NCBI RefSeq assembly: GCF_014466985.1
Contig: NZ_AP022826.1
Span: 1,798,001 to 1,862,000, forward strand
Direction: 5' to 3'
Origin: Nitrosophilus labii
GTDB taxonomy: Bacteria > Campylobacterota > Campylobacteria > Campylobacterales > Nitratiruptoraceae
Length of the DNA: 64,000 nt
Positions 5,211 to 46,961 of the stretch are shown piece by piece. The notes below the pieces were generated by a model. The model was not told the DNA's origin and searched no databases. It saw only the letters and a program-made list of their open reading frames with translations. The first letter of the stretch is position 1. Each line of letters begins with the position of its first letter. Made by a program: the position numbers and the translations under genes.

Positions 5211-5223
5211 ATATATCCTTGAA

Positions 5224-5347
5224 ATTGGGTATTAGGAATTGGGAATTGGAAATTGAAAAAAAAGAGTTTCTCTTTTAATCATTCTTTTTAAAGGGCACCT
5301 CTAAACTACAAAATTCCACTAATTCCTAATTCCCAATTCCTAATTTT
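5224..5347. terminator. Heptamer-word hairpin between the NFACT gene and cdsA
   Basis: The left arm (5224-5255) is a run of units close to GAATTGG; the right arm (5311-5347) is a run of CTAATTC/CCAATTC units. The arms are complementary and 7-base phased, separated by a spacer that holds the 17-base repeat at 5291-5307. The right arm begins within five bases of the NFACT stop codon. It is probably a terminator or 3'-end element; its function is inferred. Confidence 0.6.
5291..5307 (+). repeat. 17-base repeat AAGGGCACCTCTAAACT, copy 1
   Basis: An exact copy of the 17-mer found again at 58733-58749 upstream of sodB. Here it sits in the loop of the heptamer hairpin between cdsA and the NFACT gene. 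Two exact copies of a 17-mer in unrelated intergenic sites are unlikely by chance. Confidence 0.6.
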
Positions 5348-40946: not shown

Positions 40947-41005
40947 TTTATTCTCCTTAATTCATACAATTTTTGTCTGAATTTTAGCAATAAATTTTTA
41001 AATTG

Positions 41006-41123
41006 TAATTAGTAATTGGGGATTTGGAATTAGTAAAGTTTTTTTTAAGCTCTCCAATTCCCAATTCCCAATTCCCAATTCCCAATTCCCGATTCCCAAT
41101 TCCTAATTCCTAATTCCTAATAA
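41006..41123. repeat. Heptamer array of ten CCAATTC-type units facing four complementary units
   Basis: The right arm is ten consecutive 7-base units (41054-41123): five CCAATTC, one CCGATTC, one CCAATTC, two CTAATTC and a degenerate last unit. The left arm (41008-41036) holds four units close to GGAATTG (GTAATTA, GTAATTG, GGGATTT, GGAATTA). The last three right-arm units lie inside the murE coding end, giving its final residues. It lies between murE and the [2Fe-2S] gene and probably forms a hairpin. Confidence 0.75.
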
Positions 41124-43784: not shown

Positions 43785-44780
43785 TTAAGACTTTATCTTT
43801 TCTATTTTCTTTTTTAAAACTTCTAATTCTTTAGCAGAAAGATTTTGCATCTTCTGTGTAATCTCATCTATTTTCTCTTTTATCTCTTCAAGAGATTTTT
43901 TTCCGAGATTTTTTATATTTTTTAGCTCATCTTCACTCATTAAAACTAGTTCACCGATATATTCAATACCTGCTCTTTCAAGACAGTTGTGACTTCTAGC
44001 GCTTAGGTTTAGAGTATCGATCTTTTGTAAAAGTTTTTTAAGTTCGGCTGAGTTTTCTTCAGAATCATTTTCAGCAATAATCTGAACATTTAATTCGTTA
44101 TTAAATACGGACATCTGTTTGTACATTACAGATAAGGCATCTTTAAAAGCAGTGATAGGCTCTATTTGTCCATCTGTTTCAATATAAAATACAATCTTTT
44201 CAAAATTCGGATTATCTTCTACCAAGACTTTTTCTATATCATAAACCGCTTTTTTCACAGGAGTAAAAAAAGCATCCAATGGAAGATAACCTTCAGGTAA
44301 TTCATCTCTTATCTCTTCACTAGGCACATAGCCTATACCTTTATGAATAATCAAAGAAAATTGAAGATTCGCATCTTCATTTAATGTTGCTAAAAAGGCA
44401 TCTGGCGTTACTATCTCTATATCTTCATTCTCTAGATCTTTTCCATAAATCTCTTTTGGGCCGCTAAACTCGTACGTTACCTCTTTTTTATCGCTTTCAT
44501 CTCTTATTTTAAATCTTATGTTTTTAAGATTTATGATAAAAACAGCCACATCCTCTAACATTCCTCTTATACTATCAAACTCATGAGACACGCCTTCAAT
44601 CTTTATAGCAACTGGTGAATAACCGATAGAGCTACTAAGAAGAAGTCTTCTTAGAGGATGTGCTAAAGAGATTGCATAACCACTTTCAAACGGATATGCT
44701 TCAATTTTTATACTATTTTCTCCAAGTTGTGTAACTTCAACTTCCGAAGGCATAAAAGGTGCTGTTTTGATTTTTTTCAT
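43785..44780 (-). CDS. rpoA: RNA polymerase alpha subunit
   Basis: Assembly platform and promoter UP-element contact of RNA polymerase. 331 residues: alpha-NTD about 1-230 ([17 protein letters not shown] near the start) and alpha-CTD about 255-320 with the DNA-binding [19 protein letters not shown] and [15 protein letters not shown]. Unusually, a heptamer-type repeat array lies between it and rpsD, so it may be partly separated from the upstream ribosomal genes. Confidence 0.97.
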
Positions 44781-44810
44781 TGCTAACTCTCTCTTTTTGA
44801 ATTTTTTATA

Positions 44811-44866
44811 AGGTTGAAGGTTGAAGGTTGAAGGAAATTACTGCTCCTTCCTTCTGCCTTCTACCT
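44811..44866. repeat. Heptamer array between rpsD and rpoA
   Basis: AGGTTGA repeated three times (44811-44834) faces CCTTCCTTCTGCCTTCTACC (44846-44865). The arms are partly complementary (GAAGG against CCTTC) and 7-base phased. It touches the rpsD stop codon and lies within the alpha operon, so it may attenuate or be a site of processing between rpsD and rpoA. Confidence 0.55.
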
Positions 44867-44867
44867 A

Positions 44868-45494
44868 TTACTTAGAGTATAGCTCGACTATTAGACGCTC
44901 TTCGATTGGGATAGCTATCTCTTCTCTTTCTGGAAGTCTTGTAAATATTCCGAAAACTTTCTCTTTATCAACATCAACCCAAGGAACTATTCCAGTTTGA
45001 TTAGAAAGTTCAATCGCTCTTTGTATTTGAGGATTATTTTTACTTTTTTCTCTTATCTCAATTTTTTGTCCAGGCTTAACTCTGTAAGAAGGAATATTTA
45101 CTCTCTTACCGTCAACTAAAACGTGTCCATGATTAACTAATTGTCTTGCAAATCTTCTAGTAGTTGCAAAGCCCATTCTATAAACTACGTTATCTAATCT
45201 TCTCTCAAGTAGAATGATAAGATTCTCCCCAGTATTGCCTTCCATTCTACTTGCTTCTTTGAAAAGATTTCTAAACTGTTTTTCGGCTACGCCATACATA
45301 TATTTAGCTTTTTGTTTCTCTCTAAGCTGCAATCCGTATTCGGAAATTTTCGCTCTTCTTTGTCCATGTTGCCCTGGTGCGTATGGTCTTTTCTCTAATG
45401 CGCTCTTACCGGCAAGTCTTCTTTCGCCTTTAAGAGCAAGACTTACACCTAGACGTCTCTCTATTTTTTCAACCGGACCTCTATATCTTGCCAT
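44868..45494 (-). CDS. rpsD: 30S ribosomal protein S4
   Basis: Primary 16S-rRNA-binding protein and, in several bacteria, autoregulator of the alpha operon. 208 residues, starting [19 protein letters not shown]. The N-terminal region has no cysteines (the zinc-free form), followed by the S4 RNA-binding domain ([33 protein letters not shown]). It ends ELYSK as usual. Confidence 0.97.
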
Positions 45495-45549
45495 AGTTTC
45501 TCCTAATACTTTTTAATTCTCTAAACTTCAGCGTACCGTAATAAATAGA

Positions 45550-45939
45550 TTATACTCTTCTTCTTTTCGGAGGCCTACACCCGTTATGCGGTAAAGGTGT
45601 GATATCTTTGAAAAACAAAACTTTTATCCCCTCAATCGCCCCTACAGTCTTTACTGCAGTATCTCTACCGCTTCCAGGACCTTGAACTTTGATACCTACT
45701 TCTTTTATGCCGTGCTCTTTAGCTTTAGTCATAGCATCTTCAACAGCTTGTTGAGCAGCAAATGGCGTAGACTTTTTGCTGCCTTTAAAACTAAGGCTTC
45801 CGGCACTACTCCATGCTATAACATTACCCATCTCATCGGTAACTGTTACAACAGTATTGTTAAAGGTAGCGTTAATAAACACAATACCTTTTGCAATATT
45901 CTTTTTAACTACTTTTTTTCTTGTTTTTCTTTTTGCCAT
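45550..45939 (-). CDS. rpsK: 30S ribosomal protein S11
   Basis: Platform protein of the small subunit contacting mRNA near the E site. 129 residues with [31 protein letters not shown] and the terminal [11 protein letters not shown], all diagnostic. 11 bases after rpsM. Confidence 0.97.
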
Positions 45940-45950
45940 CCATCAATCCT

Positions 45951-46313
45951 TTACTTAGATCCTACTGTTTTCTTTTTACCTTTTCTAGTTCTGGCATTAG
46001 TTTTGGTTCTTTGACCTCTAACTGGAAGACCTCTTCTATGTCTAAGACCTCTATAACAGCCAATATCCATTAGAGCTTTTATATCCATAGCTACTTTACG
46101 TCTTAGATCACCCTCTACCATATAGTTATCTCTGATCTCTTTGTTAATTTTAGCCACTTCTTCTTCTGTCAGTTCATGAACTCTTTTGTCATAGCTGATC
46201 CCTGTAGCATCCAAAATTTTTCTGGAAGTAGTCAAGCCTATACCGTAAATATAGGTCAATGCATACTCCATTCTTTTGCTTTTCGGTAAATCTACACCTG
46301 CAATCCTTGCCAT
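45951..46313 (-). CDS. rpsM: 30S ribosomal protein S13
   Basis: Head protein of the small subunit that contacts the P-site tRNA. 120 residues starting [20 protein letters not shown], with [20 protein letters not shown] near the end. It follows rpmJ by 3 bases. Confidence 0.97.
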
Positions 46314-46316
46314 TTA

Positions 46317-46430
46317 CTATCCTTGTCTCTGTTTATGTTTTGGATTTTCGCAAATTACTCTAATAACACCTTTTCGCTTAATGATTTTGCATTTTTCGCA
46401 CATCTTTTTAACAGATGGTCTAACCTTCAT
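46317..46430 (-). CDS. rpmJ: 50S ribosomal protein L36
   Basis: Smallest large-subunit protein, 37 residues: [20 protein letters not shown], then [17 protein letters not shown]. The zinc ligands C11, C14, C27 and H32 are present, so this is the C+ form. A GGAG-type ribosome-binding site precedes the ATG at 46430. It stands in its usual place before rpsM. Confidence 0.95.
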
Positions 46431-46447
46431 TGTATCTCCTTAAAATT

Positions 46448-46574
46448 AGGTAGAAGGGTGAAGGGAAGGATGAAGGGCGAAGGATGAAGGGTGAAGGGCG
46501 AAGGATGAAGGAACGTTTTCCTTCTACCTTCTGCCTCCTGCCTTCTGCCTTCTACAGCCTTCTACCTTCTACCT
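46448..46574. repeat. Heptamer array between infA and rpmJ
   Basis: The left arm is a run of GAAGGGT/GAAGGGC/GAAGGAT units (46453-46512). The right arm is a run of CCTTCTA/CCTTCTG units (46519-46574). The arms are complementary in 7-base steps and could form one long G-C-containing hairpin with many registers. It is the largest array in the window after the one at 41006-41123 and lies in the 312-base gap upstream of rpmJ. Confidence 0.75.
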
Positions 46575-46742
46575 TAACCCCCAAACAAACTGCACTGTTT
46601 ACGGTACGCTTTAGGTTTAATGAGTTTAATTAAACCAATCCTTGTAAGAAGAGTGCTACTTCTTACAAAGATTCTTCGCGCAGTTCCCTAGAAAGGGACA
46701 AAATTGTACTAAAATAGAGCTTAATTTAAGATAAATTTTAGA
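46575..46742 (-). promoter_or_regulatory. Structured leader region upstream of rpmJ-rpsM
   Basis: Between infA and the heptamer array lie three hairpins: TCCCT/AGGGA around AGAA (46685-46698), TTGTAAGAAG/CTTCTTACAA around a 7-base loop (46642-46668), and GGTTTAAT/ATTAAACC around a 7-base loop (46614-46636). A possible -10 box TACAAT lies on the minus strand at 46708-46703, just upstream of the first hairpin. Together they suggest a separate promoter and structured leader for the alpha operon, possibly a ribosomal-protein autoregulatory site. No known leader family is recognised. Confidence 0.5.
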
Positions 46743-46961
46743 TTATTTGTATCTAAAGGTTATCCTACCTTTATCTAAACTATACGGTGTCAACTCAACC
46801 TTAACTTTATCACCTGGTAATATTTTAATATAATGCATTCTCATTTTGCCTGCAATATGGCACAATACAACATGTCCATTTTCAAGTTCTACTCTAAATG
46901 TTGCATTAGGTAGAGCCTCTTTAACTATACCGTCAACTTCTATTACATCATCCTTAGCCAT
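46743..46961 (-). CDS. infA: Translation initiation factor IF-1
   Basis: S1-fold factor that occupies the A site during initiation. 72 residues, starting [19 protein letters not shown] and ending [15 protein letters not shown], the standard sequence. In the spc-alpha junction after map, followed by the structured leader region. Confidence 0.97.

Follow-up and report, generated by a model that had tools for sequence, protein, structure and literature searches.

A conserved pseudoknotted leader RNA upstream of the rpmJ-rpsM-rpsK-rpsD-rpoA operon in Campylobacterota

A structured RNA leader precedes the ribosomal protein operon rpmJ-rpsM-rpsK-rpsD-rpoA in Nitrosophilus labii and in much of the phylum Campylobacterota. 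This pseudoknotted leader is real and conserved, and it is undescribed in the literature that we searched. It came to light in a window of 64,000 nucleotides (the whole stretch of contig NZ_AP022826.1 that was analysed, whose numbering is used throughout), in the gap between infA and rpmJ. A preliminary description had suggested that the gap, with the long heptamer array that it contains, may be an uncharacterised autoregulatory leader (of the S4 or S13 type) of the alpha operon. The structured leader is upheld by covariation, but the array is not part of it: the gap holds two separate things, a conserved structured leader and a heptamer array. We consider it rather probable that the segment at about 46588-46699 of the minus strand is a ribosomal protein leader of the five genes behind it, with S4 acting through the pseudoknot as the most likely repressor.

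The 312-base gap of the preliminary description was confirmed at 46431-46742, with infA and rpmJ both on the minus strand. Read 5' to 3' on that strand, it contains in this order TACAAT, TCCC, AACTGCGC, GAAG, the hairpins P2 and P3, GCGTACCGTAAAC, AGTGCAGTT, the array, AAGGAG and the ATG of rpmJ. The features are as follows.

46743-46961, minus strand: infA, upstream border of the gap
46703-46708, minus strand: -10-like box TACAAT, read from the sequence, with a predicted RNA start at about 46696-46699
46685-46698: third hairpin, TCCC-TTTCTA-GGGA, about 4 pairs
46678-46685, minus strand: 5' strand of P1, AACTGCGC, pairing with 46588-46595 when the gap is folded
46674-46677, minus strand: conserved junction GAAG (G in 29, A in 37, A in 35 and G in 38 of 38 genera)
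46637-46673, minus strand: hairpin P2, 15 pairs, arms 46637-46651 and 46659-46673, 7-nucleotide loop TAGCACT (46652-46658)
46652-46656, minus strand: 5' strand of the pseudoknot, GCACT, inside the P2 loop
46614-46636, minus strand: hairpin P3, GGTTTAAT-TAAACTC-ATTAAACC, arms 46614-46621 and 46629-46636, 8 of 8 pairs, 7-nucleotide loop
46592-46596, minus strand: 3' strand of the pseudoknot, AGTGC, downstream of P3
46588-46596, minus strand: AGTGCAGTT, holding the overlapping 3' strands of P1 and of the pseudoknot
46588-46595, minus strand: 3' strand of P1, GTGCAGTT, taken from the gap fold and overlapping AGTGC
46448-46575: inverted heptamer array, (GAAGGNN)n / (NNCCTTC)n, between the pseudoknot and the Shine-Dalgarno sequence
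46453-46511 and 46520-46575: mutually inverted arms of the array, from the repeat search
46436-46441, minus strand: Shine-Dalgarno sequence AAGGAG of rpmJ, read from the sequence
46317-46430, minus strand: rpmJ (L36), first gene 3' of the leader
43785-46313, minus strand: rpsM, rpsK, rpsD and rpoA, the next genes behind the leader

The leader is built of a closing helix P1, the GAAG junction, the long hairpin P2, a conserved UUGG formed by the end of P2 plus the start of P3, and the hairpin P3, together with the pseudoknot. The fold of the whole gap has an energy of -110.6 kcal/mol, as compared with -73.7 +/- 5.9 for 100 shuffles (z -6.3), a figure to which the heptamer hairpin contributes much. 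Three perfect hairpins had been claimed in this gap. Two of them are strong and both have 7-nucleotide loops, with 14 Watson-Crick pairs out of 15 and one G-U pair in the arms of P2, but the third has only about four pairs and is missing from two relatives (L010 and L018).

Covariation in P2 and P3 was analyzed in a MAFFT alignment, made on sequence only, of 49 loci picked for diversity. In P2, for which the loci were partly picked by score, 94.4% of the cells are paired and double changes occur at 12 of 14 pairs; the corresponding values for P3 are 93.7% and 6 of 8 pairs. For the two hairpins together (1045 cells), the paired share is 94.2%, compared with 73.4 +/- 0.8% when shuffled and 37.9-57.4% when slid by 1-3 columns. 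Double changes are found in 207 cells, as compared with 54.6 +/- 6.5 after shuffling, and concern 18 of the 22 pairs. One locus, L092, is misaligned in P2 of this alignment (A1) and was left in. RNAalifold recovers both hairpins unprompted. The preliminary description had made the leader depend on covariation across Campylobacterota loci, and strong covariation is what was found.

In defining the loci, the parser imposed conditions on the score of P2, on a purine junction (with a preference for GAAG) and on YYGG, and took no account of P3, P1 or the pseudoknot. The constancy of the first three is accordingly overstated. An anchor-free check was made on 28 gaps entered by rpsM similarity. In 25 of the 28 the top hairpin terminates in YYGG, in 22 of the 28 it has GAAG directly 5' of it, and the covariance model finds the leader in all three YYGG misses (L003, L021 and L029). 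This check bears on another explanation, namely that the gap encodes a structured 5' untranslated region working via attenuation, RNA stability or translation enhancement, with no ribosomal protein as ligand. Protection of the mRNA is possible from a stable 5' structure, and one terminator-like match was found on P2 of the window where 0.4 were expected. However, the best hairpins, taken regardless of any motif, end in YYGG in those 25 gaps and not in a U-run, and the pseudoknot strand adjoins the ribosome-binding site, so that we hold this explanation to be quite unlikely. As for a transcription terminator at P2 itself, it is unlikely: P2 continues into GG and P3, and no U-run is present.

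The closing helix P1 varies in sequence from family to family, with the pairs AACTGT/ACAGTT, TGCGTG/CACGCA, TTTTCAAC/GTTGAAAA, CTGTTTT/AAAACAG and GTCCCC/GGGGAT. When P1 strands were swapped among 37 genera (one genus, g63 with locus L109, was left out), the native mean was 13.95 versus 10.85 across families, and none of 2000 permutations reached the native value. In the sister genus of the window's (g3), the best P1 pairing of L007 lies off the expected place, so that P1 is doubtful in this genus.

The most telling feature of the leader is the pseudoknot, which was absent from the preliminary description. A strand located 3' of P3 is able to pair with the loop of P2, and the two read GCACT/AGTGC in the window. 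Elsewhere the pair is GGCACT/AGTGCC, CCACT/AGTGG, GCACC/GGTGC, CCGCT/AGCGG, GCATTT/AAATGC, TTTACAC/GTGTAAA or GGGAA/TTCCC, and TTTGTGTT/AACACAAA in family f9. A swap test on 32 genera, from which 12 loci with insertions were left out, gave a native mean of 13.12 against 9.27 for 906 cross-family pairs, a value that 0 of 2000 permutations reached. A score of at least 13 was obtained by 22 of the 32 native pairs and by 177 of the 906 crossed ones, and in 29 of 32 genera the native pair scores above the average of its shuffled versions. The test is conservative, since CCACT/AGTGG is common to several families. In the 24 distinct cases with a loop of the CAC type (20 loci with other loops fall outside this set), pairing is seen in 114 of 120 cells versus 28-52 of 120 when slid, it being understood that the rule anchors C-x-C and G-x-G and so makes pairs 2 and 4 of the five paired by construction. 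The pair changes observed there are C-G/G-C/A-U, A-U/G-C and U-A/C-G. Scores below 10 were obtained for L078, L092, L103 (where the strand lies further upstream) and L112, and a convincing pseudoknot was not found in families f16 and f17 or in L078.

The place of the pseudoknot is also conserved. Its 3' strand ends 20-23 nucleotides before the start codon of rpmJ in 47 of 83 loci (the 84 parsed loci described below minus L123, where no pairing was obtained), and in the three uninterrupted loci that were folded, the stretch between this strand and the start codon forms no structure (MFE 0.0). In the window this distance is 161 nucleotides because the heptamer array intervenes. A long hairpin held by the pseudoknot against the upstream border of the ribosome-binding site, followed by an unstructured linker, would suit a mechanism in which access of the 30S subunit is controlled, whether by blocking it or by trapping it.

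In the genus of the window, the 3' strand of P1 and that of the pseudoknot share four bases (46592-46595). Because of this overlap, one could imagine that P1-closed (translation on) and pseudoknot-closed (translation off) folds exclude each other, that S4 chooses between them, and that the length of the array tunes the distance as well as the gain over rpoA and the ribosomal genes. We regard such a switch in this genus as speculative and very doubtful. Elsewhere, as in L023, L030 and L085, the 3' strand of P1 precedes that of the pseudoknot.

The possible -10 box of the preliminary description is also borne out as a motif. The TACAAT of the window has a counterpart TANAAT located 10-70 nucleotides 5' of P2 in 34 of 38 genera, where 10.0 were expected from a mononucleotide shuffle, and in 24 of these 34 the box lies 21-29 nucleotides from P2. 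We propose this conserved -10-like box as a candidate promoter of the leader. It was not listed by a generic sigma-70 scan of the window. Searched by term, the main texts of the Campylobacter jejuni start-site papers PMC3847290, PMC3656092 and PMC11955535 contain no Cj1591, and rpmJ is named neither in the main texts of PMC3656092 and PMC11955535 nor among the matches listed for PMC3847290.

How widespread is this leader? Searches located rpsM in 57 of 60 relatives and in 297 of 298 genomes of the class, and 102 loci were sampled (L001-L030 and L054-L125), with rpmJ placed in every one. A purine-rich junction, a long hairpin, YYGG and a second hairpin could be parsed in 84 of them. Among the 18 others, the covariance model places the leader correctly in L003 and L021, five (L026, L099, L110, L114 and L125) look by eye like diverged versions, and the leader is missing in short gaps of 63-103 bp, e.g. 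L070, L080, L083, L091 and L113. Among 397 genomes of the phylum, the covariance model, R1, gave a match at E<=0.01 in 201, and in 193 of these the E value was below 1e-4. The count of 201 may miss some, since R1 sees the diverged leaders of f16 and f17 poorly. A single match per genome was obtained in 199 of the 201, and rpmJ lies just downstream in all 30 best-hit loci. The model finds the leader in 29 of 30 loci, most of which also trained R1 and are thus not independent.

Second or weak R1 matches in ten genomes sit away from the operon. We rejected these weak or second matches as leaders: 14 of 16 have none of six regional genes nearby and are taken as noise, and the remaining two loci correspond to the principal hits of G221 and G379. 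The eight genomes of the 201 with E above 1e-4 are doubtful, because similarly weak matches were taken as noise. R1 matched 0 of 35 genomes whose titles do not assign them to Campylobacterota (for three, the title says no more than 'bacterium' or 'Proteobacteria bacterium'), which is weak evidence, as this small set comprises no known positive and no close phylum. Within the phylum, the leader is present in Sulfurospirillum sp. SCADC (77.5 bits) and in three MAGs titled Campylobacteraceae (L131, L132 and L134), and two Nautiliaceae gave weak R1 matches at the correct location. Three Helicobacter loci (L136, L138 and L139) gave no R1 match at E<=10, nor did R1 match the Hydrogenimonas contig L130, which begins just 229 nucleotides before rpmJ. 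As far as sequence comparison can tell, it is the shape of the leader, more than its letters, that is kept in much of the phylum, including relatives of Campylobacter.

The leader also keeps its neighbours. The order rpmJ-rpsM-rpsK-rpsD-rpoA is constant in 61 of 62 loci, and the S4 gene rpsD thus stands behind the leader in the same number; the remaining locus stops at a contig edge. By contrast, infA was not found within 1.1-1.4 kb upstream in 32 of 102 loci. Since 25 of these 32 still carry a parsed leader, the leader travels with rpmJ and not with infA.

The heptamer array behaves differently from the leader. It was found in the gap, at differing lengths, in three of the five loci of the window's genus, g1 (L001, L002 and L004), but neither in the other two (L003 and L005) nor in 15 loci of genus g3. 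The motif GAAGGNN, in at least three units, occurs at 13 places of the genome, of which the infA-rpmJ gap is one, and in four units it gives 4 overlapping matches in the window versus none in 100 shuffles. Four-unit arrays exist in 3 of 60 genomes (its own, G003 and G005), and the pattern read backwards gave two matches, in one other genome. Further inverted heptamer pairs are located at 266265/266330 of the genome and, besides the gap array (46465-46512/46520-46575 by repeat period), at 5224-5259/5319-5345 of the window. The heptamer array is thus a dispersed repeat lying outside the conserved leader, and it looks like an unrelated insertion. Certain close relatives carry it and others do not, nothing was found to connect it with the function of the leader, and it could not be retained as the part of the leader that it had been taken for.

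One could still argue that all 312 bp, array included, form one regulatory element in which the heptamer hairpin is a functional domain. Indeed, the array lies between the pseudoknot and the Shine-Dalgarno sequence in those three g1 loci, and its segments fold better than shuffled ones (-65.8 vs -45.7 +/- 4.3 kcal/mol in L002, -41.1 vs -27.0 +/- 3.6 in L004 and -45.8 vs -35.9 +/- 3.9 in L001). A single element of this kind is nevertheless scarcely credible, given the absence of the array from L003, L005 and the g3 loci, the GAAGGNN heptamers at 12 other places of the genome and the other heptamer arrays of the window. The end-to-end compaction of the array is no better than that of shuffled sequence either, and despite its good folding we therefore rejected the idea of a hairpin that preserves the spacer, since the end-to-end path is no shorter.

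Seven is the favoured repeat period in the window, which holds six stretches of period 7, two each of periods 8 and 14, and none of periods 2-6, 9-13 and 15; ten randomised copies of the window contained no such repeat stretches. Arrays resembling inverted pairs were seen at 5221-5345 and 41001-41121 of the window (AATTGGG/CTAATTC and AATTAGT/CCAATTC), and a single heptamer array (AAGGTTG) lies at 44810-44834, upstream of rpoA. In other families, L074 and L077 have different inverted heptamers in the infA-rpmJ gap (GGATAAC/CTGTAAT and AAGGCAT/CTCATTGC), L074 being seemingly without leader. In the four f4 loci L022, L025, L027 and L054, whose gaps measure 598, 275, 544 and 366 bp, long insertions separate the pseudoknot strand from the Shine-Dalgarno sequence, at the spot that the array occupies in the window. 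L079 and L116 (genus g16, family f14) share another gap sequence, CATAGTCGTTTAGG...GGACTATAAACTCAATGC, possibly a replacement leader. The STRR of cyanobacteria are another case of intergenic heptamer repeats. The TAACTGA repeats of Beggiatoaceae are likewise intergenic tandem repeats of 7 bases, some within ribosomal operons, according to the available text of PMC4679880, which counts one inverted repeat among 170 sets; here, by contrast, GAAGG is fixed and followed by two variable bases, and some arrays occur as inverted pairs.

What could be the function of the leader? A conserved, covarying RNA structure upstream of a ribosomal protein operon, the very feature by which ribosomal protein leaders are recognized, is found here. 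We propose that the transcript would begin at its own promoter and carry rpmJ-rpsM-rpsK-rpsD-rpoA behind the leader. Free S4, itself a product of this operon, would when in excess over 16S rRNA bind the junction made of GAAG, P2, UUGG and P3, and stabilise the pseudoknot once bound. The folded RNA, lying against the Shine-Dalgarno sequence, would then block or trap the 30S subunit, rpmJ translation would fall, and the genes behind it would follow by coupling. Both a protein ligand and translational repression are thus supposed in this scheme, and S4 would be the natural ligand because it regulates the same operon in E. coli.

On the other hand, such a leader could respond to S13, S11 or L36 instead. 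The gene context fails to single out S4 from these three, as the gene order is constant across the 62 loci, and the leader lies directly upstream of rpmJ, followed by rpsM and rpsK, in the loci examined. Moreover, as far as helix 16 is concerned, no mimic of the S4 site of 16S rRNA was found in the leader. The GAAG..UUGG of the leader resembles the GAAG..GUUG of helix 16 of its own 16S rRNA, but six of the nine 16S genes compared have GATGAC, and we rejected mimicry on this ground; the comparison covered helix 16 in nine genomes, a tenth (G057) having yielded no 16S gene. Against another ligand, the accessible part of PMC10931766 describes S4 as a repressor of this operon in E. coli and of its own gene in B. 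subtilis, and the text seen of PMC7247131 proposes S4 as the ligand of leaders of this sort in four further lineages. We therefore find a ligand other than S4 unlikely. As a separate observation, the 16S matches of the window genome (L126) span 1806 bases in all three copies, for a model of 1533 positions, and about 1500-1545 in eight other genomes, which suggests an insertion in its 16S genes.

No known RNA family accounts for the leader among those compared. Rfam gave no family at gathering score in the window; in the gap, relaxed thresholds gave chance-like matches only, the majority of which concerned microRNA or snoRNA families and fell on the heptamer array. Ten loci had no Rfam match at E<=1 and 16 more a single microRNA match, with no leader family among them. 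The nearest known system is the S4 leader of the E. coli alpha operon, which we take to be Alpha_RBS (RF00140) of Rfam. The E. coli operator includes the start region of rpsM. The two have in common the operon, a position upstream of the genes and the involvement of a pseudoknot. They differ in that here the loop of a long hairpin pairs with a strand about 20 nucleotides upstream of rpmJ, beside a three-way core. In the portion of PMC10931766 available, S4 is described as repressing the alpha operon of E. coli via a complex pseudoknot operator, epsilon-proteobacteria are said to retain an E. coli-like operon, and the rpsD leader of Bacillus, also responsive to S4, concerns rpsD alone and has no pseudoknot.

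By comparative genomics, Eckert and Weinberg (2020; PMC7247131, available text) proposed S4 leaders in Clostridia, Fusobacteriales, Bacteroidia and Flavobacteria. Their Clostridia and Fusobacteriales motifs precede rpsM-rpsK-rpsD-rpoA-rplQ, the same place as our leader in other lineages, and the main text does not contain the terms 'epsilon', 'campylobacter' or 'pseudoknot'. The 16S-mimicking S4 leaders of Firmicutes and Fusobacteriales are characterised by conserved bases that match the S4 site in the 16S rRNA of the host; for the present leader, no such match was found in helix 16 of nine genomes. The mycobacterial rpsO (S15) leader, likened here by description and not by structure, belongs to another protein, operon and phylum. 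Term searches in the available texts of PMC7247131, PMC11109978, PMC2864571, PMC2965389, PMC10931766, PMC3847290, PMC3656092 and PMC11955535 retrieved no description of the leader, and subscription papers may contain an earlier one. Likewise, no description of the control of the rpmJ-rpoA operon in Campylobacterota was found in the literature searched.

Altogether, a compact leader stands, across many families, before the genes of S13, S11, S4 and the RNA polymerase alpha subunit, and its pseudoknot makes predictions that can be tested. Its absence from the Helicobacter loci examined offers a natural contrast. The leader would be one more independent answer to the same problem of regulation, and could be useful for asking how often RNA regulators of one protein arise anew.
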